A stretch of 30,804 nucleotides of DNA, taken from a virus. The translations under genes and the position numbers were made by a program. The DNA lies in the IMG/VR virus record IMGVR_UViG_3300028840_004389, positions 1-30,804 of that record; one strand, given 5' to 3'. The first letter of the stretch is position 1. Every line of letters begins with the position of its first letter. Under the pieces are notes generated by a model. That model ran no database searches and was not told where the DNA came from. It saw only the letters and a program-made list of their open reading frames with translations. Shown here piece after piece: positions 3,002 to 27,884 of this stretch.

Positions 3002-4210
3002 TTATAGGTGTTGGGTATATATTTTTTCCAAGTGACTTGCACAGTTTTTCCATGAGTGTCTTTGCGCTTTTTTTAATGCGTTTTCCCCCATCGTTTCACA
3101 TAGTTCAGGGTTGTTTATTGCATAGACTATTTTTTCAGATAGTTCTCTTGGTTCAAATGAGGGGTTAATAAAAAAACAGCAGTCAGCCCCAATTTTCAGG
3201 TTTTCTGGTAAGGATGTTGTAATTATCGGTCTACCTGCTGCCATATAATCCATAAGGCGTTGAAGAGATCTGGCCCTATTGAATATGGTATCACCGAGGG
3301 GTAATAGGAAGAAGTTAGAAGAGGATAAATATTTGCCGAATAAACGAGAAGGCTGATACCCAACGTAGATGATGTTTTTATTTATTTTTAATAGTCTGGC
3401 TTCAGCGATCCATCTTTCACGCCCACCTTCTCCCATCAACATTAACTTTGCTTCCGGTTTTGATTCCAACACATGTTTATGAGCTAATAGTATTGGGTTT
3501 ATTTCGTTGAAGGTCTTTGTGCCAAACGATGTTTTTTTAATGTTGCTTGTGTAGATAAATGCGTCTTTTGGGAGGTTTAGATCTTCTCGGGCTTTATTCA
3601 TGTCAAAGTTATGTATATCTTCAGTGTTCGCCCCGTTTGGTATTATATGTATTTTTTTATCACATATACCAGTCATTAATGCTCTTTGTCCTATGGTGTT
3701 ATTTGTGATAGTACAGGCATCTGCACATAAAGGGACTTTTTCCTCTAAAAAAGTAAGCATTGGTATAGCTATTTTGTATGCCCCTGAAAAAAACAGGTCT
3801 AAGCTACCGCCTTTTCCCCACCAATCATCCCAGTCAACAAAAACCTTTTTTCCAGTGAGTTTAAAGAAAAACGTAGGAACCGCGTTCTGGGGGAATAGTG
3901 CATCGAAAGTATGTAAAACATCTATATCTGAGTTTAATATATAAAAAAGATTTAATCCTATATGCAGTAATAGTGTTATAGCCTGGGATAATACGTTATA
4001 AAATAGATTTTTTCGAGAGGTAACTAAAGAAGGTAGTAATAAGATGTTCACGTTATCGGCTCTCTTTTTTACCATTTTTATAGATGGGGTTCTATTATGG
4101 CATATAACCATAGTTTCGTGACCAAACTCGGATAAATATCTTGCCAGGAAAAACGCCCTCCAGTAACCTGCTTTTCTCTCAATGGCTGATGTTAAAAAAA
4201 TAATTTTCAT
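3002..4210 (-). CDS. Family GT4-like glycosyltransferase
   Basis: 402 residues, a full-length GT-B enzyme. The N-terminal domain begins KIIFLTSAIERKAGYWRAFF with the donor/acceptor-side Rossmann fold (LARYLSEFGHETMVICHN) and includes DVLHTFDA and VDWDDWWG. The C-terminal domain carries KLMLMGEGG, IIYVGYQP, and RLMDYMAAGRPIITT, the nucleotide-sugar site. The usual E-x7-E is not intact (D and R stand near the first position). It probably decorates a virion or cell-surface glycan. The gene is visibly more AT-rich than the neighbouring spike gene, which suggests separate acquisition. A TATA box lies about 27 bases before the ATG. Confidence 0.85.
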   Translation of the reverse strand: MKIIFLTSAIERKAGYWRAFFLARYLSEFGHETMVICHNRTPSIKMVKKRADNVNILLLPSLVTSRKNLFYNVLSQAITLLLHIGLNLFYILNSDIDVLHTFDALFPQNAVPTFFFKLTGKKVFVDWDDWWGKGGSLDLFFSGAYKIAIPMLTFLEEKVPLCADACTITNNTIGQRALMTGICDKKIHIIPNGANTEDIHNFDMNKAREDLNLPKDAFIYTSNIKKTSFGTKTFNEINPILLAHKHVLESKPEAKLMLMGEGGRERWIAEARLLKINKNIIYVGYQPSRLFGKYLSSSNFFLLPLGDTIFNRARSLQRLMDYMAAGRPIITTSLPENLKIGADCCFFINPSFEPRELSEKIVYAINNPELCETMGENALKKAQRHSWKNCASHLEKIYTQHL

Positions 4211-4279: not shown

Positions 4280-6595
4280 TTACACATACTCCACTTCTAT
4301 TGAGGTTATCAAAACATTAGTTGCTATCGATGGTCCGGATGCTGCTTCGTGTAGAACCTTTATTTCCATCCAGTCGTCGCCGTTGAGGTCGTCTATGTCT
4401 GCGTCGTCTGATGCTGTTGCTACCCAGTATATTCTGTCGTTGACTGCGAAGTTTGTAGTGGTGCTGTTGAGGGTCGCTATTGCGATGGTTTCTGTGGTGT
4501 AGACTTCGTTATCTGTGCCTCCATAGCCTTCTATCTCTATCGTCATCTGTTCTGTGTCTGAGCCGAGGGAGATGCCGTATATTTTTAGTTGTATGACATA
4601 GTCGGCGTCATTGGGGATTTTGCATGAGCCTAGTACGTAGTCTGTTGCGTCGTTAACTAATCCTCCAAACGGTGCTGCGGTTTGCCACTCTGTCGCTGAT
4701 ACGAGGCTTAGTGCCTTGGTGTCGAACAGGGTGTTTGTGCCGTCATCGGTTACGGCTACTGTGCCAGTCAAGTCGTTTCCGTGGAACTGGTTTTCTGTTC
4801 CCGACTGTATTCTTATATGTGAAAGCGCGTCGGTTATCGCGTTGTCTCTAAAAATATTATAGTTTCCTCCCTGAACGTGGATTCCTCCTTCAACGAAGGC
4901 TGAATATGTTATGTTGTAGATTTCGTTTGCCTGTATCGTGTTATAGTCTCCGTCTACGCGGATTCCCGCCCTCATTACTGCGTATTGATCAGAAATGTAG
5001 TTGCTAGTTATAAGGTTGTAGTCCCCCGTTACTTGTATTCCCCGTGGTTGATGAACCGAGGCGTCGTCCCCACCATCATATATCTGGTTTCCATCTACTA
5101 GGTTATAATTTCCTACAACCCTTATGCCCCTTGACTGCCCAGAGATATAATCATAGTTTTTACAGTAAATATGGTTATCGTTAACAATATAGTGATTACT
5201 ATTTACTTCAATGCCTGTCATTACACCAGTTATCGTGTTATCGGTAATCCTACCTTCGTTTGAATATGTGTCAGTATAAACCCCGACATTGCTGTTGTTC
5301 ACATAGTTGCTCTCAACTACGGCTCGATACGAGAATTGAAGGAGTATCCCTTGAGTGACAGTGTCTCGGGTTTCACATCCCTTCACATAGCAATCAACTG
5401 AACGTTGCCCACTCGTACCCGTTATCTCGAACCCCGTGCTGCCGCCGAAAAGCCACGAATTATTATTCTTGTCGGCTATGCTATCGATGAATCCACAGTT
5501 CTGGGCTTGGTAGACGCTATAACACGTATCCGCATCGGTTCCATAACAGTTCACAGCCCGAGCATACGTTGTGTCCCCAGTGGCCTGTGCGCTAAATATA
5601 ACAAAGTTGTTGCCGAACCCCTCCCCGTGACAGTCTTTAACAAGGATATTCCAGCTCTGGCGTCCTGCCGCCGAATTTCCCTCGACGAGTATGCCGTTCC
5701 TCAGACAGTTCTTCACGTAGACTCTTTCAATGAGTACGTTGTTTACACCGGCAAGCTCTATCCCGTTAGGGTGCCTATTGGCGACATCCCCGTTTCCTCC
5801 CAGGTAGTTGCCGTCTATCATGAGGTCTCTGATCGTTATGTTCTCGTTGTGCCCTAAGTCGTGGTTCACGTTCTCTATGAGACCGTTACGATCAGGTATG
5901 TCCGTGGGCGCGACAAGGACCGTGTTGTTCATACCCTCTCCGACTAGGTAATCGTTATCCCCGAGGGTCGTGATCTGGTCCCGGCAATAATAGACGCCTT
6001 GAGAAAGGTGAACCACGCCAGTCACGTTCCCCAACGCCCATTTAACCAAGTTTGTTGTCGGCGTGGACTCGGATATGACGCCCACGCCTAGTATGTTGGC
6101 GTAATATGTCCCTGCGTCTATCCAGAGGTACGCGCTGAAGGTCTCGTTATCGTTTGTGCCGCCTCCCGAGGGCCATGTGTTCCGGGCTACCCCGCCTAAC
6201 GTGATTAAGTCAGTGGCTGTGATGTTATCAAAGGTAACATCATCGGTAGTTTCGAGGTCTTGGTTCATCGCGTAGAGTTCGTTGTTTCCATGCCCTGTGT
6301 TAACGGTCAAGAATGTAACCGCGTCGGTATTCTCTACATCTTGATTCATGGCATATAGCTCATTGTCTCCCTGCCCTGTGTTGAGTGTAATGCCTGTGAA
6401 GGCTCGGGTGTTCGATATTACCTGGTTAGTACCTATCCAGTACCCGTAATGCGTGGCATTCCACGATGGCATAACGCCGCCCGCGTTCTGCCGGAGCGTG
6501 TTCTGCGGGATAGCCGCCCATCCTATAGCGGTTCCTGCCAAGAGGAGGAATATAAAAGCGAACCAGACAACCCGATTATTTTGTCGTGAGGGCAT
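4280..6595 (-). CDS. Membrane-anchored right-handed beta-helix spike/adhesin
   Basis: 771 residues. Residues about 8-30 are a single hydrophobic signal-anchor (VVWFAFIFLLLAGTAIGWAA). Next comes a twice-repeated unit of about 29 residues with NELYAMNQD and TDxVTF, like the shaft repeats of phage tail fibres. Residues about 150-620 are a right-handed beta-helix of the NosD/pectate-lyase kind, with many N-x-I and G-N-x-N turns (ENITIRDLMIDGN, DYNTIQANEIY, NYNIFRDNAI). The last 130 residues look like a separate beta-sandwich. It is likely the receptor-binding or glycan-degrading spike. No catalytic residue can be pinned down. The start follows a palindromic TATA box shared with the divergent gene. 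Confidence 0.85.
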   Translation of the reverse strand: MPSRQNNRVVWFAFIFLLLAGTAIGWAAIPQNTLRQNAGGVMPSWNATHYGYWIGTNQVISNTRAFTGITLNTGQGDNELYAMNQDVENTDAVTFLTVNTGHGNNELYAMNQDLETTDDVTFDNITATDLITLGGVARNTWPSGGGTNDNETFSAYLWIDAGTYYANILGVGVISESTPTTNLVKWALGNVTGVVHLSQGVYYCRDQITTLGDNDYLVGEGMNNTVLVAPTDIPDRNGLIENVNHDLGHNENITIRDLMIDGNYLGGNGDVANRHPNGIELAGVNNVLIERVYVKNCLRNGILVEGNSAAGRQSWNILVKDCHGEGFGNNFVIFSAQATGDTTYARAVNCYGTDADTCYSVYQAQNCGFIDSIADKNNNSWLFGGSTGFEITGTSGQRSVDCYVKGCETRDTVTQGILLQFSYRAVVESNYVNNSNVGVYTDTYSNEGRITDNTITGVMTGIEVNSNHYIVNDNHIYCKNYDYISGQSRGIRVVGNYNLVDGNQIYDGGDDASVHQPRGIQVTGDYNLITSNYISDQYAVMRAGIRVDGDYNTIQANEIYNITYSAFVEGGIHVQGGNYNIFRDNAITDALSHIRIQSGTENQFHGNDLTGTVAVTDDGTNTLFDTKALSLVSATEWQTAAPFGGLVNDATDYVLGSCKIPNDADYVIQLKIYGISLGSDTEQMTIEIEGYGGTDNEVYTTETIAIATLNSTTTNFAVNDRIYWVATASDDADIDDLNGDDWMEIKVLHEAASGPSIATNVLITSIEVEYV

Positions 6596-6627: not shown

Positions 6628-6643
6628 GTATAAATATTTATAC
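6628..6643. promoter_or_regulatory. Palindromic bidirectional TATA box
   Basis: GTATAAATATTTATAC is a perfect 16-base palindrome. Its centre is about 38 bases from the plus-strand ATG at 6674 and about 40 bases from the minus-strand ATG at 6595. The TATA box reads identically in both directions, so it can serve the spike gene and the structural operon together. The flanking GATA and CCTTTAAA recur at 8671-8698. Confidence 0.75.
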
Positions 6644-6673: not shown

Positions 6674-7306
6674 ATGAAGGCCGTTAAACTTGCTTTACTC
6701 ATGATTATAGCCTTCTTCATCTGCATACCACCCGTCTATAGCATTGACTTCTCGGCAGGAGTAATCTTTCAAGGCGGGGGCGGTAACGTAACCTTCGCCC
6801 AAGATTTCTCAGCGACTCGGGTGGTGCTAGGGCCTAACCGTTTCTACGTTTTAGTGTGGGGCGGCCATAACCGTGGAACCCTTGGGTTTGACGTAGACGC
6901 TGGATCTAATATGACGGTTACAGGCGTCACGGAAAGAGCCATAACCTATACCATCGACCCCGGCGGCGGAGCTCCGCTTCACTCTCAAGTATATTGGGAT
7001 GCCTATAGCAGTCCTACTCGGGTGACGGGAGCAGATAATATGAATTATGATGAGACAACCGGAGTCACTACCATTACCTCAACGGGGGTCGCCGCCGTTA
7101 CCCTGTTCTACGCGGATATAAGCCATGATATGAGAACAGCAGGGAAAAGCATGACGAACCTATTTACATTATTCGCGGTTATGTGTGTCTTCGCGGTCCT
7201 TGATGAAGCCCGAGGCGGTTTTGAAAACGGTAAACTAACAGCTTATCTAATAGGTCTAGCCGTGGTTATGGCTATTGCCGCCGTCATATCTGGGTGGGGA
7301 TACTAG
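6674..7306 (+). CDS. Secreted/membrane beta-rich structural protein, paralog 1
   Basis: 210 residues. It has an N-terminal signal peptide (about 1-23, KLALLMIIAFFICIPPVYS) and a beta-rich ectodomain of about 130 residues with SAGVIFQGGGGNVTFAQDF, VLGPNRF, VWGG and GAPLHSQVYWDAYSSP. Two C-terminal transmembrane segments follow (about 155-175 and 190-208). The ectodomain matches the next gene along its whole length, so the two arose by tandem duplication. It is probably a virion envelope protein. It is the first gene after the palindromic promoter and has a short leader with GTGAG before the ATG. Confidence 0.75.
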   Translation: MKAVKLALLMIIAFFICIPPVYSIDFSAGVIFQGGGGNVTFAQDFSATRVVLGPNRFYVLVWGGHNRGTLGFDVDAGSNMTVTGVTERAITYTIDPGGGAPLHSQVYWDAYSSPTRVTGADNMNYDETTGVTTITSTGVAAVTLFYADISHDMRTAGKSMTNLFTLFAVMCVFAVLDEARGGFENGKLTAYLIGLAVVMAIAAVISGWGY

Positions 7307-7822
7307 GTGAAACGATTAATCTTTTTTCTATTCTTAATCACTTTAACATCTATCCCCGTAGCTTATGGCATCGACATCTCAACAGGCATGATTTTTAGTG
7401 GTGATAGTGGCGGCCTCGTCACGTTTAGTCAGAACTTTGTAGTACAACACATATTACTCGGTCCCACCCAGTTTACAGATCTAGAGTGGGGTGGAATAGA
7501 CTACGGGGGCTTCATTTTTGACGCTGATACAGGGGTTAATGTTACAGTCATTCAGATAGCCGACAGAAGCATCACCTACGATGTAGCAACAGGCATCGGG
7601 GCTCCGGTTCAGACGGAGGTATCATACACGGCGTATGGAGCCCCAGTAACGGTAGCAGGCGCAGACTCCTATGACTATAATTCCAGCACCGGGATAACCA
7701 CCGTAAACTCCACCGGGGCTTCTACTATCACAGTCATCTACGGAGGCCGACATACAAGCCCCCTGTTATTAATCATAGTAGCGATATTAAGCATCGTAAC
7801 ATATTTAGGAGCTAAACGATAG
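7307..7822 (+). CDS. Secreted/membrane beta-rich structural protein, paralog 2
   Basis: 171 residues from a GTG immediately after the previous stop. It has a signal peptide (about 1-21), the same ectodomain as the upstream gene (STGMIFSGDSGGLVTFSQNF, LLGPTQF, EWGG, GAPVQTEVSYTAYGAP, YDYNSSTGITTVNSTG) and one C-terminal transmembrane segment ending in a basic KR. The shared skeleton and different anchors suggest two versions of one envelope subunit with divided roles. No known family is recognised. Confidence 0.75.
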   Translation: MKRLIFFLFLITLTSIPVAYGIDISTGMIFSGDSGGLVTFSQNFVVQHILLGPTQFTDLEWGGIDYGGFIFDADTGVNVTVIQIADRSITYDVATGIGAPVQTEVSYTAYGAPVTVAGADSYDYNSSTGITTVNSTGASTITVIYGGRHTSPLLLIIVAILSIVTYLGAKR

Positions 7823-8190
7823 TGGGAAGAAAAAACCAGATGAAATACGTGTTAACTGGCGCAATAATCCTATTCGCCTACATATTCCTCGTCATGTACC
7901 CCGACGTTGCAGGACTCCCCGCAGACAGCGCAGACACCATGATCACACTGTTCCCCGGTCTCTTTATCATCATAATAGCCATATATGCATTCAGCGACAG
8001 CCGGGGAGTAGGCCGCGTAGCCTGTATGATAGGCATAGGCTTAGGACTCTGCTATTTCATAGATAGTGCAAACACAGCGGGCCTCGTGACGATAGAGATG
8101 CTAAGCGGGCTAACCGTGGGTCAGCTACAGATATGGATCATGGGCCTAAGCACGATCCTCGGCGGCATCAGCTACGCCTACAGCCGCTAG
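7822..8190 (+). CDS. Small polytopic membrane protein
   Basis: 122 residues, starting at a GTG that shares its first base with the preceding TAG. Four hydrophobic segments are evident (YVLTGAIILFAYIFLVMY, TLFPGLFIIIIAIYAF, VACMIGIGLGLCYFI, and a C-terminal one with IMGLSTILGGISYAY). It has no enzyme motif. Coupling to the two paralogous envelope proteins suggests a structural or assembly role in the virion membrane. Confidence 0.65.
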   Translation: MGRKNQMKYVLTGAIILFAYIFLVMYPDVAGLPADSADTMITLFPGLFIIIIAIYAFSDSRGVGRVACMIGIGLGLCYFIDSANTAGLVTIEMLSGLTVGQLQIWIMGLSTILGGISYAYSR

Positions 8191-8206
8191 GTATAAACTT
8201 TTATAC
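8191..8206 (+). promoter_or_regulatory. Archaeal TATA promoter for the capsid candidate
   Basis: GTATAAACTTTTATAC begins directly after the stop codon of the previous gene. It resembles the palindromic promoters at 6628 and 8674 but has an imperfect centre. Transcription should begin near 8225, about 28 bases before the reading frame of the two-helix protein opens. GTATAAACTTTTATAT before the basic gene at 12345 is the same element. Confidence 0.7.
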
Positions 8207-8252
8207 TCATACAAACAAATAACAATTAACCGTGACTAGGAGCTGAAAAAAA

Positions 8253-8435
8253 GTATCTAAGAGCATCCTGGCGAACCCAACCGTCCAAACCTCGCTTGTG
8301 ATCGCGGTGATCCTTACCCTCGCGGGAATCGCGTTCATGGCCAGCGTCCAGACGGAGCTGTGGGACGCCGCAGACGCGATAGCCGGGCTTCTAGTCCTCA
8401 TCGCACTCGTCGCTGTCTTCAAGCAGTTGAAGTAG
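8253..8435 (+). CDS. Two-helix hydrophobic protein, candidate major capsid protein
   Basis: About 60 residues. The reading frame gives VSKSILANPTVQTS, a first membrane helix (LVIAVILTLAGIAFMA), a polar turn (SVQTELWDAADA), a second helix (IAGLLVLIALVAVFKQLK) and a stop. Two membrane helices in so short a protein is the form of the major capsid protein of spindle-shaped archaeal viruses. It has its own TATA box and is followed at once by a strong hairpin terminator, as expected for an abundant product. The start is unresolved: the frame opens after an in-frame TGA at 8244, and GTA (8253), CTG (8268) or GTG (8298) are the only candidates. GGAG lies ten bases before 8253. The capsid role is inferred. 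Confidence 0.6.
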   Translation, partial: VSKSILANPTVQTSLVIAVILTLAGIAFMASVQTELWDAADAIAGLLVLIALVAVFKQLK

Positions 8436-8439
8436 CCAC

Positions 8440-8471
8440 GGGCGGCATGAGCTAGAGCCGCGCCCCTTTTT
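8440..8471 (+). terminator. Intrinsic-type terminator after the capsid candidate
   Basis: GGG-CGGC pairs with GCCG-CG-CCC (a seven-pair GC stem with a two-base bulge and a loop of ten bases), followed by C and five T. It begins five bases after the stop codon, so the two-helix gene is a single-gene transcript. Confidence 0.65.
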
Positions 8472-8494
8472 ATTTACCCATCAATGGGGATACT

Positions 8495-8674
8495 ATGAGT
8501 CGTAGAAGAACGGAGGCGTTTCTAAAACGTCGATACATATACCTTCACCGGGGCATCCGTAGACACACGGATAAACTGGTAAAGAACACCCATAAAATGA
8601 GAATAAGCCCAGACCGGGCAGCCAAGGGAAAACAGGAGTTTATTAAAAGAATTAAAAACCTTTTCCGTGGATAG
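8495..8674 (+). CDS. Small very basic protein
   Basis: 59 residues with a high Arg/Lys content throughout (MSRRRTEAFLKRRYIYLHRG, KRIKNLFRG). It is probably helical and nucleic-acid binding. GGGGATACT precedes the ATG. It lies between the capsid-candidate terminator and the next TATA box, the first bases of which overlap its TAG. It could help compact the genome in the virion; no family is recognised. Confidence 0.6.
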   Translation: MSRRRTEAFLKRRYIYLHRGIRRHTDKLVKNTHKMRISPDRAAKGKQEFIKRIKNLFRG

Positions 8675-8718: not shown

Positions 8719-9003
8719 TTGCCCCGTAAAACCCCTATCCGCCACAAAGTACGCAGCCACACTCGAAGCGGAGTTACAGTAAAGTCCTATAAGCGGGGTC
8801 AAGGCGACAACCCCCATACACCACCCAAGACCCAGAGCCGCCGCGCTGGGACAGGGTACACGGTATCACTAATTTTCAGCAAAGGCAAGGAGAACTATAA
8901 CGTCGGCGGCGGCACCTACACGGGGGCCTTACGGACTGGGTTAACCCGCATCCAGAGGCCGGAAATACCGCAACGAGTCCAGATACGGAGGCTTAAACGG
9001 TGA
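8719..9003 (+). CDS. Basic hypothetical protein
   Basis: 94 residues from TTG; GAGCTGA just upstream is one base from a perfect GAGGTGA ribosome site. It is strongly basic, with Arg/Lys/Thr/Gly-rich low-complexity stretches (RKTPIRHKVRSHTRSG, KTQSRRAGTGYTV) and two short strand-like segments. Likely nucleic-acid binding or virion-associated; not recognised. It is followed by a membrane-protein gene whose GTG overlaps its TGA. Confidence 0.6.
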   Translation: MPRKTPIRHKVRSHTRSGVTVKSYKRGQGDNPHTPPKTQSRRAGTGYTVSLIFSKGKENYNVGGGTYTGALRTGLTRIQRPEIPQRVQIRRLKR

Positions 9004-9257
9004 CACCCTCCCGGTTTAAAGAGGTCATATTTGTCCTCGGTCTCGGGGTTATAGCTGGTTACTATGGGTTAACTTGCTTTGTTTTCATATTGGCTTCTCT
9101 TACGGGGTATGAGTCAGTTACTATTCACATGAATCTCTTTGGTGAGATGACCTTTGAGGTAATTATTACCGTTCTTTCACTACCCTGCGCTGTATATGCT
9201 ATAAAAGAGACAGTTAGACTCAAAAAAGCTGAAATAAAGGTGTTGAAAGGTGAGTAA
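9000..9257 (+). CDS. Small two-helix membrane protein
   Basis: 85 residues from a GTG in a GTGA overlap. It has two transmembrane segments (VIFVLGLGVIAGYYGLTCFVFILASL and FEVIITVLSLPCAVYAI) separated by about 20 residues, then a basic amphipathic tail (RLKKAEIKVLKGE). Its stop lies inside the start of the 645-residue gene, so the two are made together. It may anchor that large charged protein at the membrane; this is inferred from position. Confidence 0.6.
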   Translation: MTPSRFKEVIFVLGLGVIAGYYGLTCFVFILASLTGYESVTIHMNLFGEMTFEVIITVLSLPCAVYAIKETVRLKKAEIKVLKGE

Positions 9258-11187
9258 CTCAAGACGAAGACGGGAGGAGCGTCGAGAAGAGTTAAAGACC
9301 ATACGCACAGGACAAAAAACACCTGAAAAGAAAACAAGGCAATCCACGAAGGGCCGCGAGAGGCGGGAGGAACGGCGGTTCGGCCCTAAACGCACAGAGA
9401 AACCGAGGCGTGTGAAGGCTAAACCCATAAAGGATTTACATAGTGACCTAGACAAACTGAAAAGCGATACAAAGAAGCTGCAGAAACAAGCAAACCTTAC
9501 CCGAACACAGATAGACGATATCAAACAGATGGATAGAGAGATCAAGAAAGCCCATCAGAAGATAAAAAGTGGCAAAGTTAACGAAAAACGAGTTAAAGAG
9601 ATAAAGGAAACCATTGACAAGATCGAGAAGGTCAAAGAAGAAATAGAAACCCCTCCACGGGGCTCATGGTATGGTGAACGAAAGACTTTAGACTGGGAAG
9701 AACTGACACAACGACTTTATGATAAATCTAATTTCCCATCTCAAAGCGAGATGAGAAAAGCCCTTGAAGAGAAAGGCATGGCGGCTAAAGAAGATTTTAA
9801 ACCTAAGACAGTGGGGGAAGCATTAACTAGAGTAGCTTATGCAGCCGCTGAAATGATTGGCGGAGGGGTTCGTGAAGCCACCTTTGGAGCCACTGGATCA
9901 CTTGGGGCAGAGAAAAGACGGGGAGGCTTTGCTTTACAGGTTGTGGGTGGGTTGGCAACACCCACCCCAGCAGACTATGCGGCGGGGTACGTGATAGCTA
10001 AGGTTGCACCATTGAAACGGGGCCGCAAACTGCTGAAAAAACTAAATGACTATATGTACCCTGAAGAGATGTGGGCAAACCCACAGATGGCAGCCAAGAC
10101 TAAGAGAATATTTGAAGATATGGCTGGTCCGGGTCATTGGACCACCACGCAAATACGTGAATTAAAAGGCGCATTAAAACGACTTAACCCTAAAAAAGCG
10201 AAGAAAATAATCACCTTTGAAGATTGGAATGAACTTAACGAGATAGCTAAACAGGGAGAGAAAATCAAAGGAGTACATGGATACAGTACATACGATCTTA
10301 GAAACGCGAAAAAAGCATTAAAAAGACTAAGCCTATCAATGGATGATAAAGGATTACCTACCGAACTATTTACCCCCGCAGAGAGACGACAATGGGAGAA
10401 ACTGGCAAACAAAAACGGAATCAGCACACATGATCTACGATACGCAAGCCAAGAGAGACTTAGACGGCTGATTAATGAAGCTATAGAATACTATGAATCC
10501 CACCCCTACGAGACAAGGATGGTTCAAGTAAATGAAGTATATGATGAATATGTAAACACCTATTGGGATACTGACGAATATATAAACTTCTTAAAGAAAA
10601 ACAGGGACATCCCAGATCCAAACCTTGTAGCGTCTATTCTCATCAACCGTCCATTCAAGGATATACCCAAGATACTAGAAGACGTTGCAGACTATAACCT
10701 GAAGAAGCCAATTCCTAAGATAGTTGAAAGCGTGTCAGAGAAACGAAAACCCACAGAAGATGAAGATACTGGTGAGGATGTAGACGAGAAACCAGATGAC
10801 GAAACAGAGCCAACACCCTTTCCACCCAAAGAAGAACCAAAAGAAGAACCAAAGGATGAAACAGAGAAAACACCTAAAGAAGAACCAGACGAGGAGGATG
10901 AACCAGAACCACCGCCACCACCAGATGAGGACGACGAACCCGAACCAGAAACCAAGAAGAAGCCTCTCACAGAGGACCAGAAGATAGAGATCCGCCGCCA
11001 CCGCCTACAGCTATTCAACGGCCCTAAAACCATTTATAAAGTAAAGTACGTGTTCCCCCGTGGGAAAGGTCAAACCATACGCATAGAGGCACGGGGCTTT
11101 GTGGAGGCATTAAACAAGGCGCAGCGGCGACGCAGATCCAACAAGCACCATCCTAGCCTTGTGGATATAACGAGGATAAAGGGATGA
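9250..11187 (+). CDS. Large basic coiled-coil protein with Pro/Glu-rich linker (probable virion protein)
   Basis: 645 residues, GTG start with AAAGGTGA-type site. Order of parts: an Arg/Lys-rich head (1-65); a coiled coil with heptads of Leu, Ile and Lys/Glu (about 65-135); a Gly/Ala-rich, moderately hydrophobic stretch (about 195-255, AAEMIGGGVREATFGATGSL); a mixed helical domain with repeated HDLR/YDLRxAxxxLxRL segments (about 285-415); a low-complexity Pro/Glu/Asp linker (about 500-580); and a basic C-terminal domain (YKVKYVFPRGKGQTIRIEAR). No enzyme motif is visible. It is likely an internal structural or tape-like scaffold. The next gene overlaps its stop. Confidence 0.65.
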   Translation: MSNSRRRREERREELKTIRTGQKTPEKKTRQSTKGRERREERRFGPKRTEKPRRVKAKPIKDLHSDLDKLKSDTKKLQKQANLTRTQIDDIKQMDREIKKAHQKIKSGKVNEKRVKEIKETIDKIEKVKEEIETPPRGSWYGERKTLDWEELTQRLYDKSNFPSQSEMRKALEEKGMAAKEDFKPKTVGEALTRVAYAAAEMIGGGVREATFGATGSLGAEKRRGGFALQVVGGLATPTPADYAAGYVIAKVAPLKRGRKLLKKLNDYMYPEEMWANPQMAAKTKRIFEDMAGPGHWTTTQIRELKGALKRLNPKKAKKIITFEDWNELNEIAKQGEKIKGVHGYSTYDLRNAKKALKRLSLSMDDKGLPTELFTPAERRQWEKLANKNGISTHDLRYASQERLRRLINEAIEYYESHPYETRMVQVNEVYDEYVNTYWDTDEYINFLKKNRDIPDPNLVASILINRPFKDIPKILEDVADYNLKKPIPKIVESVSEKRKPTEDEDTGEDVDEKPDDETEPTPFPPKEEPKEEPKDETEKTPKEEPDEEDEPEPPPPPDEDDEPEPETKKKPLTEDQKIEIRRHRLQLFNGPKTIYKVKYVFPRGKGQTIRIEARGFVEALNKAQRRRRSNKHHPSLVDITRIKG

Positions 11188-12344: not shown

Positions 12345-12467
12345 ATGAAGAAGAAGGGAGAACCTAAACGCGACGGCAGCGGAGGCGGCACCAGGAAGAA
12401 CAAGGGCCGCGGAGGCTGCAAAGACACCAAGCCCAAGGGTAGGGGCAGAAACCGCCGGAAGCCGTAA
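12345..12467 (+). CDS. Tiny Gly/Lys/Arg-rich basic protein
   Basis: 40 residues: KRDGSGGG, NKGRGGC and KGRGRNRRKP make up most of the chain. Similar short glycine- and arginine-rich peptides with KxDGSGxG and GRGGC occur in phages and environmental archaea. Probably disordered and nucleic-acid binding, perhaps a protamine-like genome compactor. It has its own TATA box and AAGGTG eight bases before the ATG. The single cysteine is unusual for so simple a protein. Confidence 0.65.
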   Translation: MKKKGEPKRDGSGGGTRKNKGRGGCKDTKPKGRGRNRRKP

Positions 12468-12521: not shown

Positions 12522-13271
12522 CTACCATCTCTGTACCAATAGTTTTGGGAAGTATAGTCTCCAGTTAAGGTGGCTATATCTGTCATCTACGCCCTGGGTT
12601 GTGTGTCCTGTATAGATGTCTCGTTCCTCTTTGGTGAGTCCACATCGCTGCGCGAGCTCCATTGTTCGGTAATGCCTCATCGATCCGTGTAGGGCTAATC
12701 TTCTATAGTGGCGTGGGACTTTAGTTTCATTCACTATATTTGGTGGCGGCTTAATGAAGGGCTGAATCTCCTCTGGGACTTTGTTTTTAATTGCTTGATA
12801 TTTCTCTTGATCTATTTCTCTTATAGTGTATGGCTCAATGGGATAGATGTAACCATCAAACACTTTCTTGACCCCATTATATAGATCCTGTCTAGTATAA
12901 TGAAAAACGGGTTCATCCTTTAGGAACCCCTGGAAGTAATCATAAACGGGTTTAGCGAAAGGCTCTAACTCAGGGTCCAATGGTATCCCTATATCCCGAG
13001 GCAATCCATCCCGTTTACTAGTCTTAACATGCAATACCAGGGCTTCATGGCCTAGATGCTCTGCTATGCTAAAGTCACTCCCATAAGGGCCGTTAGGCGT
13101 GGTTCCTTCATCGCTAGGGCAAACCTTTGTAACAATTTCACTCACCCGCCCCGCTATCAGATACCCATACATCCCGCCCATTCGATGCCGTTTTTCAGGT
13201 ATACCTCGAATAAGACCTCGAACAGTCTTGTAATCCGGCAAAGTCCCGCTATCTTTGTCTAAAAACTTCAT
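12522..13271 (-). CDS. Tyrosine recombinase (integrase) catalytic domain
   Basis: 249 residues. Catalytic residues are present in order: Arg42 (AGRVSEI), a beta-hairpin Lys in VKTSKRD (about 83-86), the box II segment LHGSMRHYRT (His195, Arg199), His223 (TGHTT) and the nucleophile Tyr232 (RYSHL). This is enough for an active enzyme. The chain starts almost directly with the catalytic domain, so the N-terminal core-binding domain usual in XerC/D and SSV-type integrases is missing or very short. It probably integrates the circle or resolves dimers. A TATA box stands about 25 bases before the ATG, giving a leaderless transcript. Confidence 0.85.
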   Translation of the reverse strand: MKFLDKDSGTLPDYKTVRGLIRGIPEKRHRMGGMYGYLIAGRVSEIVTKVCPSDEGTTPNGPYGSDFSIAEHLGHEALVLHVKTSKRDGLPRDIGIPLDPELEPFAKPVYDYFQGFLKDEPVFHYTRQDLYNGVKKVFDGYIYPIEPYTIREIDQEKYQAIKNKVPEEIQPFIKPPPNIVNETKVPRHYRRLALHGSMRHYRTMELAQRCGLTKEERDIYTGHTTQGVDDRYSHLNWRLYFPKLLVQRW

Positions 13272-13420: not shown

Positions 13421-14491
13421 TTATCGGCATTGTGGTATGGTTTTGATATAGTCGGGGTACTTCCTTGTAAAACCTCTCTGTACGGAACGGGCTGTGTTTT
13501 CTCCGCTAGGTTCATTGTTCTCTTCGAGTATTTCTTGTATAACAGATAAATCTATATTACCCTGAGAGGTAGTGCAAAGCCGTTCTTCATTATCTTTTAT
13601 TAGTTCAATTCTTTTAGTTAGTGTGCTACTATTCTCTTCCTCTTCTTTTTCTTTTTTTACGTGGTTTAGGAAGTATTCTTTGCGTCGTTCATAGATGGCT
13701 CTGATTGTCTCGCAGTGGTTTTCTGGGTCTTCGTTTTTGAGGTCTAGGTGTTTGCATTTGAAGCAGTCGATCCAGTTGCATATTCCTTCGTCGGGTAGTA
13801 GTAGGTTTACTTTACCGAGGCGTTTTACATAGGGCTCTTTAGCGAATCTGGGGAAGTGTTTTCGGTAGCAGATGGTTTGTCCTCGTTTGGGGAAATAGAA
13901 CTCGTAGTTGAACACAAATTTGCGTAGTATCTTGTCTATCATCTCTGTGTGAAGGACCACGAGGAAGAGTAGGAACCCCTTGGATCTTATGGCGGCTATG
14001 TGGTTTACGATTTCCTGTTGTTCTCGTTCTCCCCACCTTCTGGCACTTACACCGTAATGGGCCTCATCTATGACTATTACTTGCCCTCGTTTCAGTGGTG
14101 TGTGTTCCCCTGTGAGGTAGTCCAGGTGTTCACGGCTGAAAGCTATCTGTCCATCATCCTTGTTGCCGGGTGGTGGGGGCACGTCGTTTATGTGGAACTT
14201 GGGGTCTAGTTTCTGGGCGATCCTCATGACGCCATAGGTTTTACCTTTGCCTGGGTAGCCTGTGGCTGCCACCACTACGGACTCGTTATCTCGTCGTTTC
14301 TGTAGGATCTCATCAAATATCTTCGTGCTGTATCCCTCCCCTTGAAGTAACAAGGTGTGCCCGTATTTCACGCATTTAACCCCAGCTTTCTCCAGGTATT
14401 TGAAGCGGTCCGGCATAGGGTAAAGGCGTTCATCCTTACCCTTCGGTGTCCGGTATCCTTGGCCTTCTGAACGGCGTTTTTTTTCGCTCAA
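13421..14491 (-). CDS. P-loop ATPase, packaging/assembly type
   Basis: 356 residues. Walker A is GYPGKGKT (78-85) and Walker B is VIVIDEAHYG (about 138-147), followed by VSARRWGEREQQEIVNHIAA and FLLFLVVLHT, a sensor-like strand. This is the pattern of the FtsK/HerA- or Zot-like ATPases found in membrane-containing archaeal viruses. A cysteine cluster (CNWIDCFKCKH) follows at about 235-247, and the C-terminal 70 residues are probably helical (RSVQRGFTRKYPDYI). Probable role: genome packaging or virion morphogenesis at the membrane. The start overlaps the upstream gene by 56 bases. Last gene of a seven-gene minus operon. Confidence 0.8.
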   Translation of the reverse strand: MSEKKRRSEGQGYRTPKGKDERLYPMPDRFKYLEKAGVKCVKYGHTLLLQGEGYSTKIFDEILQKRRDNESVVVAATGYPGKGKTYGVMRIAQKLDPKFHINDVPPPPGNKDDGQIAFSREHLDYLTGEHTPLKRGQVIVIDEAHYGVSARRWGEREQQEIVNHIAAIRSKGFLLFLVVLHTEMIDKILRKFVFNYEFYFPKRGQTICYRKHFPRFAKEPYVKRLGKVNLLLPDEGICNWIDCFKCKHLDLKNEDPENHCETIRAIYERRKEYFLNHVKKEKEEEENSSTLTKRIELIKDNEERLCTTSQGNIDLSVIQEILEENNEPSGENTARSVQRGFTRKYPDYIKTIPQCR

Positions 14492-15168: not shown

Positions 15169-15513
15169 TTATGGTTCTCCTCTTGCTTGTTTGGTGAGCC
15201 GGAAAAGGGTTAGGAAAAAGTCTGTCAATAATAGTAGCTGTAACATGATCAAGACCAGGAGGGCTCCCATGTATGGGAGGTTTGGCTCAGATATGATGAA
15301 GCCGCCGATGCCTACGAAGAACAATAGGTCCAGCACTACTATGAACATCTTAAAGTATCCCCAGCGGGGGAGGGCGCGGCGGGCTTTCTTCATGGTGTAA
15401 ATCTTTTTTATTAGATCCCTTTGGGTAGGCTGGTTCTCAGAGTCAGGTTGGTTCCACCATTCCTCGGGGTCTGTTTCCTCAGGTGTTGGGGTGGGGTCTT
15501 GTTCGTCACTCAA
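15169..15513 (-). CDS. Two-span membrane protein with charged N-terminus
   Basis: 114 residues. Residues 1-45 are acidic and Pro-rich (DEQDPTPTPEETDPEEWWNQ) and then basic. Two transmembrane helices follow at about 53-75 (MFIVVLDLLFFVGIGGFII) and 80-103 (MGALLVLIMLQLLLLTDFFL), ending in a short basic tail. The gene overlaps the upstream reading frame by eight bases. Membership of the ATPase operon suggests a virion membrane role. Confidence 0.65.
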   Translation of the reverse strand: MSDEQDPTPTPEETDPEEWWNQPDSENQPTQRDLIKKIYTMKKARRALPRWGYFKMFIVVLDLLFFVGIGGFIISEPNLPYMGALLVLIMLQLLLLTDFFLTLFRLTKQARGEP

Positions 15514-15916
15514 TGCCTAGTCTTTCCTTTTCTTTGTCTTCCCAGCGTCGGTTCCAGAGGTTTCTTTCAAGCCACCCAGGTTTCTCGATCTCTGGTTCAA
15601 GATCCACGACGCCTCCTTTTCTAACCGATTCAGCCCGTAGTAGGTCACGTCTTCCTCGACCTCGAATTGATACCAATAGATCCAGATAGTTGTCTACGAG
15701 GGTGCCTATGGCCTTGTCACCGAATACATCTGCGTAGCTCTGTAGGAGTACGAGGCTTCGCATCCCTTGAGGGATGTTCTTAGGGTCCGTGAGGACGGTG
15801 AGGATCTTCATGTTTATGCCGCCCTTCGCTAAGGTCTTGGAGTCGCTGCCTAGCTGGTTTGCCAGAGATGCCCCGGCCTCGTCTTCTAGGTCTTGCTCCG
15901 GGTAATCCACGCTCAT
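15506..15916 (-). CDS. Soluble hypothetical protein of the ATPase operon
   Basis: 136 residues from the ATG at 15916, which overlaps the preceding TGA (ATGA). The reading frame is open 24 codons further upstream, but those codons lie inside the neighbour and are not expected to be used. The chain is helical: an acidic N-terminus, then ILTVLTDPKNIPQGMRSLVLLQSYADVFG and DNYLDLLVSIRGRGRRDLLRAE, and a Trp-rich charged end. Not recognised. Confidence 0.6.
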   Translation of the reverse strand: MSVDYPEQDLEDEAGASLANQLGSDSKTLAKGGINMKILTVLTDPKNIPQGMRSLVLLQSYADVFGDKAIGTLVDNYLDLLVSIRGRGRRDLLRAESVRKGGVVDLEPEIEKPGWLERNLWNRRWEDKEKERLGIE

Positions 15917-16482
15917 ATTATCCCCTGTTTGAGGCCGAAATACATGATGAAGGCACCTAAGCCGAGCCAGAGAAGCCGGTTCATCCATACCTCTCCCGCG
16001 TCCTTCGTGGGCTCTGCAACGGCAAAGTCCCTGAATACGTTGATTACATGCTGTCTTAGTATCTGGTAGGCTGATACGCTGCTCAGGGTTTTCTCCTGTT
16101 CCTTTGTGAGTTGTACGGGTTCCACGGTGACGGTTGCCCCGTATGCGGTGCTTTCAATGGGTTCACTAAGGTGGGGAGGTAGTTTGTTGTATTCGTTTTC
16201 GCCCCAGGCGAATATTAGAAAGTCTTTCATGCTGGATTTAACTGGTTTCCCGGCATTGAGGTATGATGTTAAGGGTACTCCGGGGGATGCAAGCCATAGC
16301 CTCCTCTTATCGCTGTTCCACCCTGGGCCTTGTTTCTGGTATCGGTAGACCACGCCTTCATGTGGATGGCATATTAGGCCGATCTCGACTTCTTGATCAA
16401 CGGTGAGTGGATCAAAATTCAGGCTGTCTGGGTAGAATAGATACACTTCTTTACGGGTGCCCCGTTTCAGTCTATCACTCAT
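15913..16482 (-). CDS. Tail-anchored membrane protein of the ATPase operon
   Basis: 189 residues. A soluble beta-rich N-terminal domain (about 1-110: EVYLFYPDSLNFDPL, VEIGLICHPHEGVVYRYQKQ, RRLWLASPGVPLTSYL) is followed by a helical region and a single C-terminal transmembrane segment (LLWLGLGAFIMYFGLKQGII). The LICHPHEGVVYRY block looks like a conserved core. The start overlaps the end of the ribbon-helix-helix gene by eight bases. No family is recognised; possibly a virion surface or assembly protein. Confidence 0.65.
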   Translation of the reverse strand: MSDRLKRGTRKEVYLFYPDSLNFDPLTVDQEVEIGLICHPHEGVVYRYQKQGPGWNSDKRRLWLASPGVPLTSYLNAGKPVKSSMKDFLIFAWGENEYNKLPPHLSEPIESTAYGATVTVEPVQLTKEQEKTLSSVSAYQILRQHVINVFRDFAVAEPTKDAGEVWMNRLLWLGLGAFIMYFGLKQGII

Positions 16483-16667: not shown

Positions 16668-17006
16668 ATGACGCATTTTGAGCCGAGGCCGAGCCAGATC
16701 AAGGAACACCGGCATAGTAATGCGTCCAAGGACACGGCGGGGGATCAGAGGTCGCCTTATACTTTATGGAGTTTAACCATGTTTCGCCCTCGGCTGCGTG
16801 ACCGGGCGGGGTCTTGTTTCCTCTCCACTCTTGAGCCTGTGGACTCTGAGTTGTTGCAGCGGTGCATGGACCTTGTTTTTCCTTGGCGGGTAGACTTGTA
16901 TATTGTCTCAGAGACTTTTTTCCAGGTACAGTTCCACGAGAAACAGGGCTGGCGGGATATAATCAACTACACGCGGCGGGCCTTCAAGGAGATGAACCTG
17001 AGTTGA
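16668..17006 (+). CDS. Hypothetical soluble protein
   Basis: 112 residues. The N-terminal half is polar and probably disordered (HFEPRPSQIKEHRHSNASKD). The C-terminal half is more structured (VDSELLQRCMDLVFPWRVDL, SETFFQVQFHEKQGWRDIIN), like a small alpha/beta domain. The ATG sits about 31 bases after the centre of the palindromic TATA box, so it is first in the plus operon, most likely leaderless. Its TGA overlaps the next ATG by one base. Not recognised. Confidence 0.6.
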   Translation: MTHFEPRPSQIKEHRHSNASKDTAGDQRSPYTLWSLTMFRPRLRDRAGSCFLSTLEPVDSELLQRCMDLVFPWRVDLYIVSETFFQVQFHEKQGWRDIINYTRRAFKEMNLS

Positions 17007-17608
17007 TGATCTGGCAACAGACGCCCCTTGGATACCTGGTTCAAGTCCTCATATTGGGGCAGCCGTTTCTCTGGATGCGGCTCTATGACTCGGAGTTATG
17101 CGTTTCAGAGTGGGTGAAATATCTCTTCTATATTGGGGGTATCGTTGCCTTAGAGGGTGTCTGGGTTTTCAAGGCAGGCATTGGGTTCTACTCCACGGCC
17201 TTGATTCTTCAGTACATCGTTTACGTCGTGGGGTCTACCTACCTCTATAATCAGCGGTACGGAATCAAGCAGGCGGTGTGTCTGGCGTTTCTCACCGTCT
17301 TTCTTAATAGTTATTACTGGGAGCTTCCGCTACACCTAGCCGAGTACATACAGGTTGGTATTTACCCTGCCCAGTTTGTGCAGCTCTGGCGGTTGACTCC
17401 GCTGGTCTTCTTCATACCCAGAGGTATGATAACGAAGAATGATTTTAAGCCGTTACTCGGTGGAGTCTTTTTCAGTATCGTTTTGATGGTTTACAGAAGC
17501 CAGCGATACCGTCAGCCCTTCCAGGCACTCACTCACCCGGTTAACCGGGTCGTATGCCTCGCGGTGCTTGTCTACGTGATAACGGGGAGGCTATATTTTG
17601 AAGATTAG
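17006..17608 (+). CDS. Polytopic membrane protein
   Basis: 200 residues from the ATG at 17006; the frame is open further upstream but that part lies inside the preceding gene. Five or six hydrophobic segments are visible, for example YLVQVLILGQPFLWMRLY, YLFYIGGIVALEGVWVF, ALILQYIVYVVGSTYL, LAFLTVFLNSYYW, LLGGVFFSIVLMVY and VVCLAVLVYVITG. No transporter signature is recognised. With a glycosyltransferase two genes on, it could help carry or modify a lipid-linked glycan, but that is only positional evidence. Confidence 0.65.
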   Translation: MIWQQTPLGYLVQVLILGQPFLWMRLYDSELCVSEWVKYLFYIGGIVALEGVWVFKAGIGFYSTALILQYIVYVVGSTYLYNQRYGIKQAVCLAFLTVFLNSYYWELPLHLAEYIQVGIYPAQFVQLWRLTPLVFFIPRGMITKNDFKPLLGGVFFSIVLMVYRSQRYRQPFQALTHPVNRVVCLAVLVYVITGRLYFED

Positions 17609-18062
17609 AAAAGTCTTGCTGCGGTTCCTCCGCAACGCCCGAGAGGATGTTTTCAGTAAGAAACTTACATGGTATGAACGGTTAAACAAGATATGGGATT
17701 ACTTTAAGCGTGGTAACGGGGAGATCCGTAACTTCCTCGCTATCTGGAACCTCATATTGTTGTTCGCTATAAACTTGAACTTCAAGCTAAGCATGACCAT
17801 CGTGTTGGTGTGGACGGTGTTGTTTATCCCCGTCTGCGTCTTGATCGGGCTCTTCTTCACTAAGAAGGTGAATATAGCTGCTGCCAAGACCAGCCCATTC
17901 ACCCAGGATAATATTTTGAGTGCTATAAGACTCCAGCAGAGCCTCATAAACCTTTATGAGTACCAGAAATCTGGCGACCCCACGTTACTGGATAAAGCCA
18001 TAGAAGAAATGAATGTCGCCCAGCATCTACGGGAGAAGTGGATTGATATATGCGTGTCATAA
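17598..18062 (+). CDS. Two-span membrane protein
   Basis: 154 residues from TTG, overlapping the polytopic gene by eleven bases. A basic amphipathic N-terminus (KIRKVLLRFLRNARED) precedes two transmembrane helices (about 47-65, FLAIWNLILLFAINLNF; about 67-88, MTIVLVWTVLFIPVCVLIGLFF). The C-terminal 60 residues are soluble and helical (AIRLQQSLINLYEYQ, LLDKAIEEMNVAQHLREKW). Thirteen bases overlap the glycosyltransferase start. Not recognised. Confidence 0.65.
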   Translation: MKIRKVLLRFLRNAREDVFSKKLTWYERLNKIWDYFKRGNGEIRNFLAIWNLILLFAINLNFKLSMTIVLVWTVLFIPVCVLIGLFFTKKVNIAAAKTSPFTQDNILSAIRLQQSLINLYEYQKSGDPTLLDKAIEEMNVAQHLREKWIDICVS

Positions 18063-19219
18063 TGCCCTTCAACTACATCGACGAATATTACTGGGAACGA
18101 TACAAGGACCAGATACAGCCCATCGCGGACAGGGTGGAGGGCTTCACCATAGTATCTAACACTGGCGTCACCCCGGAAAACACGGGCAAAGTCGAAGTAA
18201 TTATCCACGGCAAAGCACGCCGTCCCCGTGGGCTGCCTGAGATGGCGGTACGTCACTTCTTCTCGTTTCAGGGCCTCATCATAGCTCGGAAGATATGGCG
18301 TCGGCATAAGATAACTGAGGACTTGAAGAGTGTGGACGGGGATCTGGTTTACGGTTTTAGTGGGGGAGCCTATCAACAGTGTGTCCATATACTACTTAAA
18401 AATAAGAAGGGGGTCCCCGGAGTTCACCGTATGCGGGGTAACGCAAAGCTGGAGCTTAAACATGTCGTGAACGGCATTATGAAGATCGCCCTCGCCCATA
18501 TCTCAGACTGTACCATGCTGATGTATGACCGGCATGTACCAATCAACACCCACTACTATAAGTTGCTGCGCCTCTACGACATACCGAGGGAACAGATAAG
18601 CAGACCCATTGGCCTCGGGGTCGATACAGAATCCTTCACGCCTCGAAGCGAAAGCGACGGGTTCACCCTCGGATACTTTGGGCGACTCAGCCCAGAGAAG
18701 GGCACCCGCTTCATGCTGGACTTGATGAGGAAGACACCGGACACCCGTTACCTCGTCGTGGGTAAGAACATTATGGACGTAAAGTTCCCCAGAAACGTTG
18801 AGTATCATCGACCCGTCCACCACCGAGACATGCCAAGATACTATAGCAAGGTGGACGCGGTGCTGCTCCCCAGCTACGCTGAGGGTGTGAGCAACATATT
18901 CCCAGAATCCTATGCCTCGGGTAAACCAGTAATATGCAGCCACGCGGCCTACCCCGAGGACATACCCCTATACGGGGTCAAGCTACCCCACCGGCTGAAC
19001 GCTTGGATCGAGACAATCCGCAGCCTCGATAAACCAACAGCCCAAGAATGGGGAACCCGTGCCCGCGTATGGGCTGAAGGCTATACGTGGGACATTTTCG
19101 CGGAGAAGATGATCACTGAGTTTAAGAAAGTGATAAGACATGACGACACCCTGGACCGGGCGCATGGAATACCTGCACAACCTCTGGACATCGTTCCAAG
19201 GACGCGGAGTAATCCCTGA
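18050..19219 (+). CDS. Family GT4-like glycosyltransferase
   Basis: 389 residues. The C-terminal GT-B domain is clear: FTLGYFGRLSPEKGTRFMLD, then YLVVGK, RDMPRYYSKVDAVLLPSYAE and EGVSNIFPESYASGKPVICS, which holds the E-x7-E nucleotide-sugar motif of family GT4. The N-terminal domain (about 1-190) includes YGFSGGAYQQCVHILL and HRMRGNAKLELKHV. It should transfer a sugar from an activated donor onto a glycan at the membrane or virion surface. It is more GC-rich than the glycosyltransferase at 3002-4210, so the two probably have different origins. The start at 18050 overlaps the previous gene by 13 bases. Confidence 0.85.
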   Translation: MRVIMPFNYIDEYYWERYKDQIQPIADRVEGFTIVSNTGVTPENTGKVEVIIHGKARRPRGLPEMAVRHFFSFQGLIIARKIWRRHKITEDLKSVDGDLVYGFSGGAYQQCVHILLKNKKGVPGVHRMRGNAKLELKHVVNGIMKIALAHISDCTMLMYDRHVPINTHYYKLLRLYDIPREQISRPIGLGVDTESFTPRSESDGFTLGYFGRLSPEKGTRFMLDLMRKTPDTRYLVVGKNIMDVKFPRNVEYHRPVHHRDMPRYYSKVDAVLLPSYAEGVSNIFPESYASGKPVICSHAAYPEDIPLYGVKLPHRLNAWIETIRSLDKPTAQEWGTRARVWAEGYTWDIFAEKMITEFKKVIRHDDTLDRAHGIPAQPLDIVPRTRSNP

Positions 19220-26765: not shown

Positions 26766-27884
26766 ATGAACAAGTTACCGCTGAATCAAGTCCTATGCGG
26801 GGATTGCCGGGAAGTAATGGCTTCGTGGCCTGAGGCAGGCATAGATTTAGTGGTAACAAGCCCACCATATTGGGGACTTAGAGATTATGGGCATGAAGAT
26901 CAGATAGGATTAGAACCCCATCCCCAGAAGTACATTGATAATCTTGTCAACACTTCCCAGGAGATAAGGAGAATACTAAAGCCCAAGGGAAGCTATTGGT
27001 TAAATCTTGGGGATACTTACTTTTCTAAACAAGGTAACAATTCTACATATAATAAAGATACAACATTAAAAGGGAATAATGAACGATGGCATTATGAAAG
27101 AGAAAGCGACGGCTCTAACTGGCTTCAGCCTAAGCAGCTCCTAGGAATACCTTGGCGAGCAGCCACAGCCCTTCAACATGACGGGTGGATTCTACGCAAC
27201 TGCGTGATCTGGTACAAACCAAACCACATGCCCTCTTCAGTAAAAGATAGATTAACCACTTCCTATGAATTTATTTTCTTTCTAGTTAAACAAAAAAAAT
27301 ATTATTTCAACCTTGATAGAATTAGAGTACCACATCAAACAAAGGGAGATTATAAAGACTATACTGATAAAATTCATATAAGTGAAAGAAGTAAAAGGGA
27401 TGAAGTTTTAACAAGAAATAGTTTAGGAAAACCCAATCACCCCATAGGGAAAAACCCCGGAGATACTTGGCCGGCCCATGGGCCCAATACTGGATCAAAC
27501 AACAAAGAGCCATACAAACAAAACAATCCCCATCTTTCAAGAATATTACATGGAACCGAAGCAGGGCACATTAAAGGAAAGAATCCAGGCGACTTTTGGG
27601 AGATACCCACTTACCCCTTCCCGGGGGCGCATTTCGCAGTATTCCCGCCAGCTCTTATAGAGCCAATAATAAAAGCCGCGTGTCCTAAAAACGGCGTCGT
27701 TCTTGACCCCTTCGCAGGATCCGGCACAGCCCTCCGAGTAGCCCGTAAGCTAGGGCGTCGTTTCATTGGCATTGATATTAACTCTGAATATGTGGAGATG
27801 AGTGAAAGAAGGGTAAGAGCTGATAGCTATTCTCCACCGCCAGAAGGCGTACCGACTTTAACGGAGCTGCTAGACCGTGAGTAA
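26766..27884 (+). CDS. DNA methyltransferase, amino (N4-cytosine/N6-adenine) beta class
   Basis: 372 residues. The catalytic motif TSPPYWGLRDYG is at residues 31-42 and the SAM-binding motif DPFAGSGTALRVARKLG at about 314-330, followed by FIGIDIN. Catalytic motif before SAM motif is the beta order, and SPPY favours N4-cytosine. The middle (about 170-290) is the target-recognition region and is AT-rich and irregular. It should protect the element's DNA from host restriction; no endonuclease gene is near. A minigene stop abuts the ATG. Confidence 0.9.
   Translation: MNKLPLNQVLCGDCREVMASWPEAGIDLVVTSPPYWGLRDYGHEDQIGLEPHPQKYIDNLVNTSQEIRRILKPKGSYWLNLGDTYFSKQGNNSTYNKDTTLKGNNERWHYERESDGSNWLQPKQLLGIPWRAATALQHDGWILRNCVIWYKPNHMPSSVKDRLTTSYEFIFFLVKQKKYYFNLDRIRVPHQTKGDYKDYTDKIHISERSKRDEVLTRNSLGKPNHPIGKNPGDTWPAHGPNTGSNNKEPYKQNNPHLSRILHGTEAGHIKGKNPGDFWEIPTYPFPGAHFAVFPPALIEPIIKAACPKNGVVLDPFAGSGTALRVARKLGRRFIGIDINSEYVEMSERRVRADSYSPPPEGVPTLTELLDRE

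Follow-up and report, generated by a model that had tools for sequence, protein, structure and literature searches.

The described viruses closest to the one considered here are spindle-shaped archaeal viruses and inoviruses. SSV1 (Fuselloviridae) has a circular dsDNA-type genome of 15.5 kb, with a two-helix capsid gene and a basic protein nearby, and its A154 gene (annotated A-153 in X07234) lies directly before B251, with the integrase adjoining; A154 and B251 both belong to the absolute core of fusellovirus genes and have been linked to replication and packaging (PMC9608457). His1 (Halspiviridae) is linear, with a type-B DNA polymerase, and places a two-helix capsid gene (ORF21) and membrane-protein genes on one strand and an ATPase operon on the other. 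Published descriptions of the Nipumfusiviridae, Thaspiviridae, Huangdiviridae and Eurekaviridae, which are metagenomic or cultured spindle-shaped viruses, likewise feature a small helical capsid protein and an ATPase (PMC10866085, PMC10848311, PMC12451623). Inovirus structural proteins are of 30-90 residues, and archaeal inoviruses exist (PMC6813254).

The window, meaning the whole stretch of 30,804 bases that was analysed (IMG/VR virus record IMGVR_UViG_3300028840_004389), carries a perfect 144-base direct terminal repeat and is thus a circular genome, complete at about 30.66 kb. As judged from sequence, a two-helix protein encoded in it marks out a small group, not described before, with at least four member viruses, namely the window and three IMG/VR contigs: L002, found via the ATPase, and L004 and L005, found via an alignment of the 94-residue basic protein at 8719..9003 (L012 is the L004 record and L011 the L005 virus record). 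The genomes of this group are of 30-41 kb and encode many membrane and signal-peptide proteins. In all four viruses the protein displays a general spindle-virus feature, that of a small, highly hydrophobic two-helix candidate capsid protein, and it is likely to serve as major capsid protein in a new group of spindle-shaped archaeal viruses, probably of family rank and known here from its genes. The features of its gene are as follows.

8191..8206, plus strand: capsid-gene promoter GTATAAACTTTTATAC, a palindromic TATA element specific to the virus and a site of GTATAAANATTTATAC
8232..8246, plus strand: possible leaderless 4-codon leader ORF (GTG ACT AGG AGC TGA), with similar mini-ORFs in L002 and L004
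8238..8246, plus strand: Shine-Dalgarno sequence AGGAGCTGA, at a spacing of 6 to the GTA at 8253
8253..8435, plus strand: candidate major capsid protein, 60 residues, with a putative GTA start (stop-to-stop frame 8247-8435)
8466..8475, plus strand: T-tract that may act as terminator, as TATA box for the following gene (8495), or as both; not reported by the terminator scan

The stop-to-stop frame (62 residues) contains two strongly hydrophobic segments, with Kyte-Doolittle values of 2.57 and 2.63. Two hydrophobic segments occur in 9 of the 177 window ORFs of 50-95 codons, and both exceed 2.5 in the capsid candidate only. Both are present in all four homologues, and the original prediction of a coding frame for a protein of about 60 residues with two membrane helices is thus borne out, the architecture being kept in the three relatives. 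Over 60 residues the window protein aligns ungapped with the L005 copy (35% identity, pairwise E=1e-11) and likewise with the L004 copy (E=3e-6); local shuffles give P<=0.0005 in both cases, so that the similarity is not accounted for by shared hydrophobicity. The L002 copy is clearly linked to that of L005 (local-shuffle P<=0.0005) and marginally to that of the window in pairwise comparison (P=0.03). Each of the L002, L004 and L005 records holds one match, and in each the two-helix gene adjoins homologues of window genes 7822-8190 and/or 16862-17608. As a single-sequence query against IMG/VR, the capsid frame found no relative. The use of ATC and C-ending codons by the candidate ranks 1st of 48 in the window, 1st of 38 in L002, 2nd of 24 in L004 and 5th of 16 in L005, where the bias is not significant; C-ending codons are a usual mark of high expression, and the top ranks are the pattern expected for a very abundant protein.

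In agreement with the proposal that the gene has its own TATA box, the element at 8191-8206 is one of seven sites in the window of the palindrome GTATAAANATTTATAC, which with up to 2 mismatches gives 13 matches against 0.12 expected in shuffles. These sites lie at 6628, 8191, 8674, 12305, 13292, 16630 and 20119, and the two that are found between divergent genes may fire in both directions; the palindrome at 12305 belongs to an extremely basic ORF of 40 residues (12345-12467, MKKKGEPKRDGSGGG...). Leader mini-ORFs occur at leaderless distance from the TATA box in the window (8232-8246), in L002 (6662-6636, minus strand) and in L004 (about 15524-15553), and end at or a few bases from the capsid start, with a 2-base overlap in L002. 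Their position before the capsid gene in these three viruses makes translational coupling possible. The GC hairpin described after the gene does not hold up, since 8440-8467 folds no better than shuffled sequence (z=0.08) and is absent from the terminator scan, and the T-tract taken as the gene end does exist but also fits as the TATA box of gene 8495. From promoter spacing, the capsid gene unit is probably monocistronic.

The start of the gene appears unusual. In the window the capsid frame has no ATG, GTG or TTG upstream of GTG 8298, which falls inside helix 1, and the homologous N-terminus, with its NP or SP motif, reaches upstream of this codon; a start at GTG 8298 was rejected on both grounds. 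Among canonical genes of these viruses with a clear Shine-Dalgarno sequence, the start most often follows the TGA register at a spacing of 6 (9 of 32), and 24 of 32 have spacings of 4-7. At a spacing of 6 the codon is GTA (8253) in the window and ATA in L002, while the genes of L004 and L005 start with ATG and TTG. Given this commonest spacing and the codons found at it, we infer non-canonical initiation placed by the Shine-Dalgarno sequence, with a product of 60 residues, and translation of the capsid gene appears to begin at a non-canonical start in two of the four viruses. The predicted length of about 60 residues is therefore retained from GTA 8253, but with no canonical start codon to give it. 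Readthrough from GTG 8232 was rejected because L002 has no in-frame upstream start, and a homopolymer sequencing error because the same error would be needed in separate contigs and the Shine-Dalgarno spacing fits already; an NTG start with a +1 frameshift is possible but disfavoured, as a start 6 bases past the Shine-Dalgarno TGA already explains the in-frame TGA. The translational start of SSV1 VP1 is likewise unclear (PMC5748691). The absent normal start codon explains why gene callers truncate or miss the capsid gene, and these genes allow non-canonical initiation placed by a Shine-Dalgarno sequence to be tested directly. A basic-protein frame unrelated to the capsid frame (L004 10272-10439, KKTAKNKTRKGKK...) has a strong Shine-Dalgarno sequence with only ACG (10284) at a spacing of 6, and is a third candidate for such initiation.

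One would not expect a non-canonical start in the most abundant protein, and this counts against the capsid reading. A start codon that looks weak would suit the tightly limited expression of a small non-capsid membrane protein, such as a holin- or pore-like lysis protein, a superinfection-exclusion protein or an A82-like toxin, and the two-helix proteins of SSV1 include non-capsid ones, for example the A82 toxin (PMC9608457). Such a function is nevertheless quite improbable for a gene that has its own promoter and the strongest codon optimisation in the genome, and that sits among putative structural genes in four viruses. In the window, the neighbouring genes and further membrane-protein genes are the following.

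4280..6595, minus strand: right-handed beta-helix adhesin-like protein (NosD 1.9e-11, Beta_helix 1e-10)
6674..7306, plus strand: signal-peptide protein with two C-terminal helices
7307..7822, plus strand: tandem paralogue of 6674-7306 (41-45% identity)
7822..8190, plus strand: multi-helix membrane protein, 122 residues, adjoining the capsid gene, with homologues in L002 and L005
8495..8674, plus strand: very basic protein, 59 residues, pI 11.9, a possible DNA-binding virion protein, with a basic 55-residue counterpart at the same place in L002
8719..9003, plus strand: basic protein, 94 residues, pI 11.9, conserved in all four viruses
about 9000..9257, plus strand: second two-helix membrane protein, 85 residues, in the window and L002 only
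9250..11187, plus strand: basic protein, 645 residues, coiled-coil-like, similar to L002
11184..12305, plus strand: 373-residue protein with a conserved C-terminal membrane region, in all four viruses
15169..15513, minus strand: protein of 114 residues with a pair of helices at the C-terminus; conserved in all four viruses
15913..16482, minus strand: 189-residue protein, conserved in all four viruses, with a C-terminal membrane helix in the homologues
16862..17608, plus strand: multi-helix membrane protein; in L004 and L005 its homologue is next to the capsid gene, in L002 one gene away

The tandem paralogues at 6674-7306 and 7307-7822, with a signal peptide and a C-terminal anchor, are probable spikes. 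The presence of other two-helix proteins (about 9000-9257 and 15169-15513) counts against the capsid reading, as one of these, or the C-terminal pair of 6674-7306, which also has two hydrophobic helices, could be the major capsid protein and the 60-residue protein a minor virion component. The universal conservation of 15169-15513 within the group and a weak match of the capsid profile to 6674-7306 (E=0.003) speak for this arrangement, which we consider very unlikely: 15169-15513 has a long hydrophilic N-terminus and sits in the ATPase operon, about 9000-9257 has no homologue found beyond L002, and no alternative two-helix gene is among the most codon-optimised genes of the window. The 189-residue protein (15913..16482) was also modelled as an alternative capsid, and its model was too poor for use (pLDDT 51).

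Comparison of the candidate with the capsid proteins of Fuselloviridae and His1, proposed as a check by the original prediction, revealed no homology: with a profile of four sequences, hhalign probabilities were 2.6% for SSV1 VP3, 0.5% for SSV1 VP1 and 2.4% for His1 VP21, and the PHROG search gave no match to phrog_11172 or phrog_5402. Tests of this kind have little power with four sequences; spindle-virus capsid genes are known to escape sequence search, and published spindle capsids also fail such tests (PMC10866085). The expected fold had been an alpha-helical hairpin. The AlphaFold model, built from only four sequences, consists of one continuous helix (11-61; mean pLDDT 80.6, pTM 0.40) rather than a hairpin, which by the refuting criterion of the original prediction counts mildly against the latter. 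Foldseek of this model against the PDB and a PDB sequence search returned no match, and the BFVD fold search gave only matches of E=8.8.

A single long helix is also what would be expected of an inovirus-like coat, in which helix 1 would be a cleaved signal, the mature protein one long helix with an acidic N-terminus and a basic C-terminus, and the virion a filament extruded by a Zot/pI ATPase. This is the main rival because the ATPase of the window also matches phage protein I/Zot, and the very small hydrophobic coat candidate adds to the resemblance to Inoviridae and archaeal inoviruses. Both hydrophobic segments are, however, conserved, with no conserved signal-peptidase motif by eye (none in L004), and while the L005 capsid homologue matches phrog_1859, ‘major head protein’, the match is weak (E=0.018) and is made by one of the four homologues. 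Typical inovirus genomes are far smaller than 30-41 kb, and the genome size of the group and its many membrane and signal-peptide proteins set it apart from them. Among the window proteins scanned, no match to inovirus families other than pI/Zot was obtained. Taken with the two relatives of fusellovirus core proteins listed below, these differences make an inovirus-type coat unlikely.

12522..13271, minus strand: tyrosine-recombinase-like protein, from a motif recognised by eye (Pfam and PHROG gave no match)
13421..14491, minus strand: ATPase with a Zot/pI-type match, an apparent distant relative of SSV1 B251 and His1 ORF16 (Pfam, PHROG, hhalign)
15506..15988, minus strand: distant relative of fusellovirus core protein A154, with a GRGRRD motif (profile, hhalign, phrog_6627)

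The ATPase has counterparts in L002 (91% identity) and L005 (34%), whereas L004 has a different ATPase. It matches Zot (PF05707) above the Pfam cut-off, and its best PHROG is phrog_1675, M13 protein I (4.5e-6); the second is phrog_5484, the family of SSV1 B251 (5e-101) and His1 ORF16 (3e-62), a weak link that recurs in all three members carrying the ATPase (E=0.0014-0.0072). That phage M13 protein I ranks above the weakly linked B251 family counts against the spindle reading. The ATPase aligns with His1 ORF16 over 159 columns (hhalign probability 54%, E=1.3e-4). The p160 profile, which represents the 15506-15988 family, matches SSV1 A154 at E=1e-3, with the GRGRRD motif common to both; by hhalign this comparison reaches 72% (E=3.5e-5), while the other 223 of 224 comparisons remain at or below 12%, and in PHROGs the window protein matches the A154 family, phrog_6627, and no other. 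As in SSV1, the A154-like gene precedes the ATPase gene, here within the same strand cluster, and the recombinase-like gene follows the two; the four-member integrase-like family is not alignable with the D335 integrase (hhalign probability 0.1%). A distant relative of one absolute-core fusellovirus gene (A154) and a weakly linked relative of another (B251) lend independent support to the virion assignment. The window proteins that were scanned matched no capsid, portal or terminase family, in keeping with the claim that a recognisable standard capsid gene is lacking.

The original proposal of a spindle-virus-type capsid protein is accordingly upheld in part, by conservation, codon use, promoter, the lack of a standard capsid gene and the ATPase and A154 relatives, but not by capsid homology or a predicted hairpin. 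Starting from the sequence statistics, that is, a conserved two-helix coding frame with highly optimised codons behind a virus-specific promoter, 8253-8435 would be translated at a high level, from a Shine-Dalgarno-positioned non-canonical start (GTA in the window, ATA in L002), into the major capsid protein of an archaeal virus with a spindle-shaped or closely similar membrane virion. The two hydrophobic helices would lie against each other in a hairpin, packed with host lipid, and numerous copies would assemble into a flexible helical shell; the DNA inside it would be condensed by the small basic proteins 8495-8674 and 8719-9003. Genome packaging or extrusion would fall to the A154-like protein together with the ATPase; spikes or a tail that binds the host would be made up of the membrane-anchored, signal-peptide and beta-helix proteins. 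A more far-reaching proposal, in which a spindle-type membrane virion with GTA/ATA capsid initiation set by Shine-Dalgarno spacing alone is extruded by a near-protein-I ATPase, and so links spindle-virus and inovirus assembly, is doubtful.

Compared with SSV1, the window differs in its capsid protein, which is not alignable with VP1/VP3, its genome size (30.7 versus 15.5 kb), its beta-helix adhesin, DNA methyltransferases and glycosyltransferases, an ATPase closer to Zot/pI, and an integrase-like protein that does not align with D335; in common with SSV1 it has a circular genome and a two-helix candidate gene near one for a basic protein, and the core gene A154 is represented by its distant relative. 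The window resembles His1 in the distribution of capsid, membrane-protein and ATPase genes over the two strands, but is circular. Of the inovirus features, the pI/Zot ATPase is present and a small genome with inovirus gene content is not (30.7 kb). For each of Fuselloviridae, Halspiviridae and Inoviridae a defining feature was looked for and not found, so the window should be assigned to none of them. The group is probably new at the family level, the comparison by sequence having covered these three families. The predicted new membrane-virion lineage is narrowed to a new group within the spindle-shaped archaeal viruses rather than a new kind of virion. Sequence searches miss short, divergent spindle-virus capsid genes, which leaves whole archaeal virus groups unclassified; here a capsid candidate is named for four otherwise unannotated viruses that two core genes tie to the fusellovirus world, and profiles from the four can be used to find more such viruses.

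An archaeal host is suggested by the TATA-type promoters and by genes that are leaderless or have a Shine-Dalgarno sequence. When the ATPase and the 94-residue protein were used to look for proviruses or hosts in 84,980 species genomes, no match was obtained; GenBank phages searched with the ATPase, the capsid candidate and conserved proteins gave no informative match (one partial), and tblastn of the window structural proteins against a phage collection gave none. A radical-SAM protein (29735-30508) shares 47.5% identity with a gene product of a Methanofastidiosa virus, a similarity that serves as a host hint only. The L005 virus record contains a Cas12f1-like TNB / OrfB_IS605 (TnpB-like) gene (L011 405-1523, minus strand) and a D5/DUF5906 primase-helicase-like protein of 853 residues (L011 8402-10963, minus strand); the L004 record has instead a 780-residue protein with an MCM winged-helix match (L012 9816-12158), which looks unrelated to the latter. 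The window encodes three DNA/RNA methyltransferases (712-1257, 26766-27884 and 27910-28542; MT-A70, N6_N4_Mtase and C5 DNA methylase), as well as a glycosyltransferase recognised by Pfam (18050-19219) and an ORF at 3002-4210 that by eye resembles a second one, both of which may decorate the virion or the host surface.
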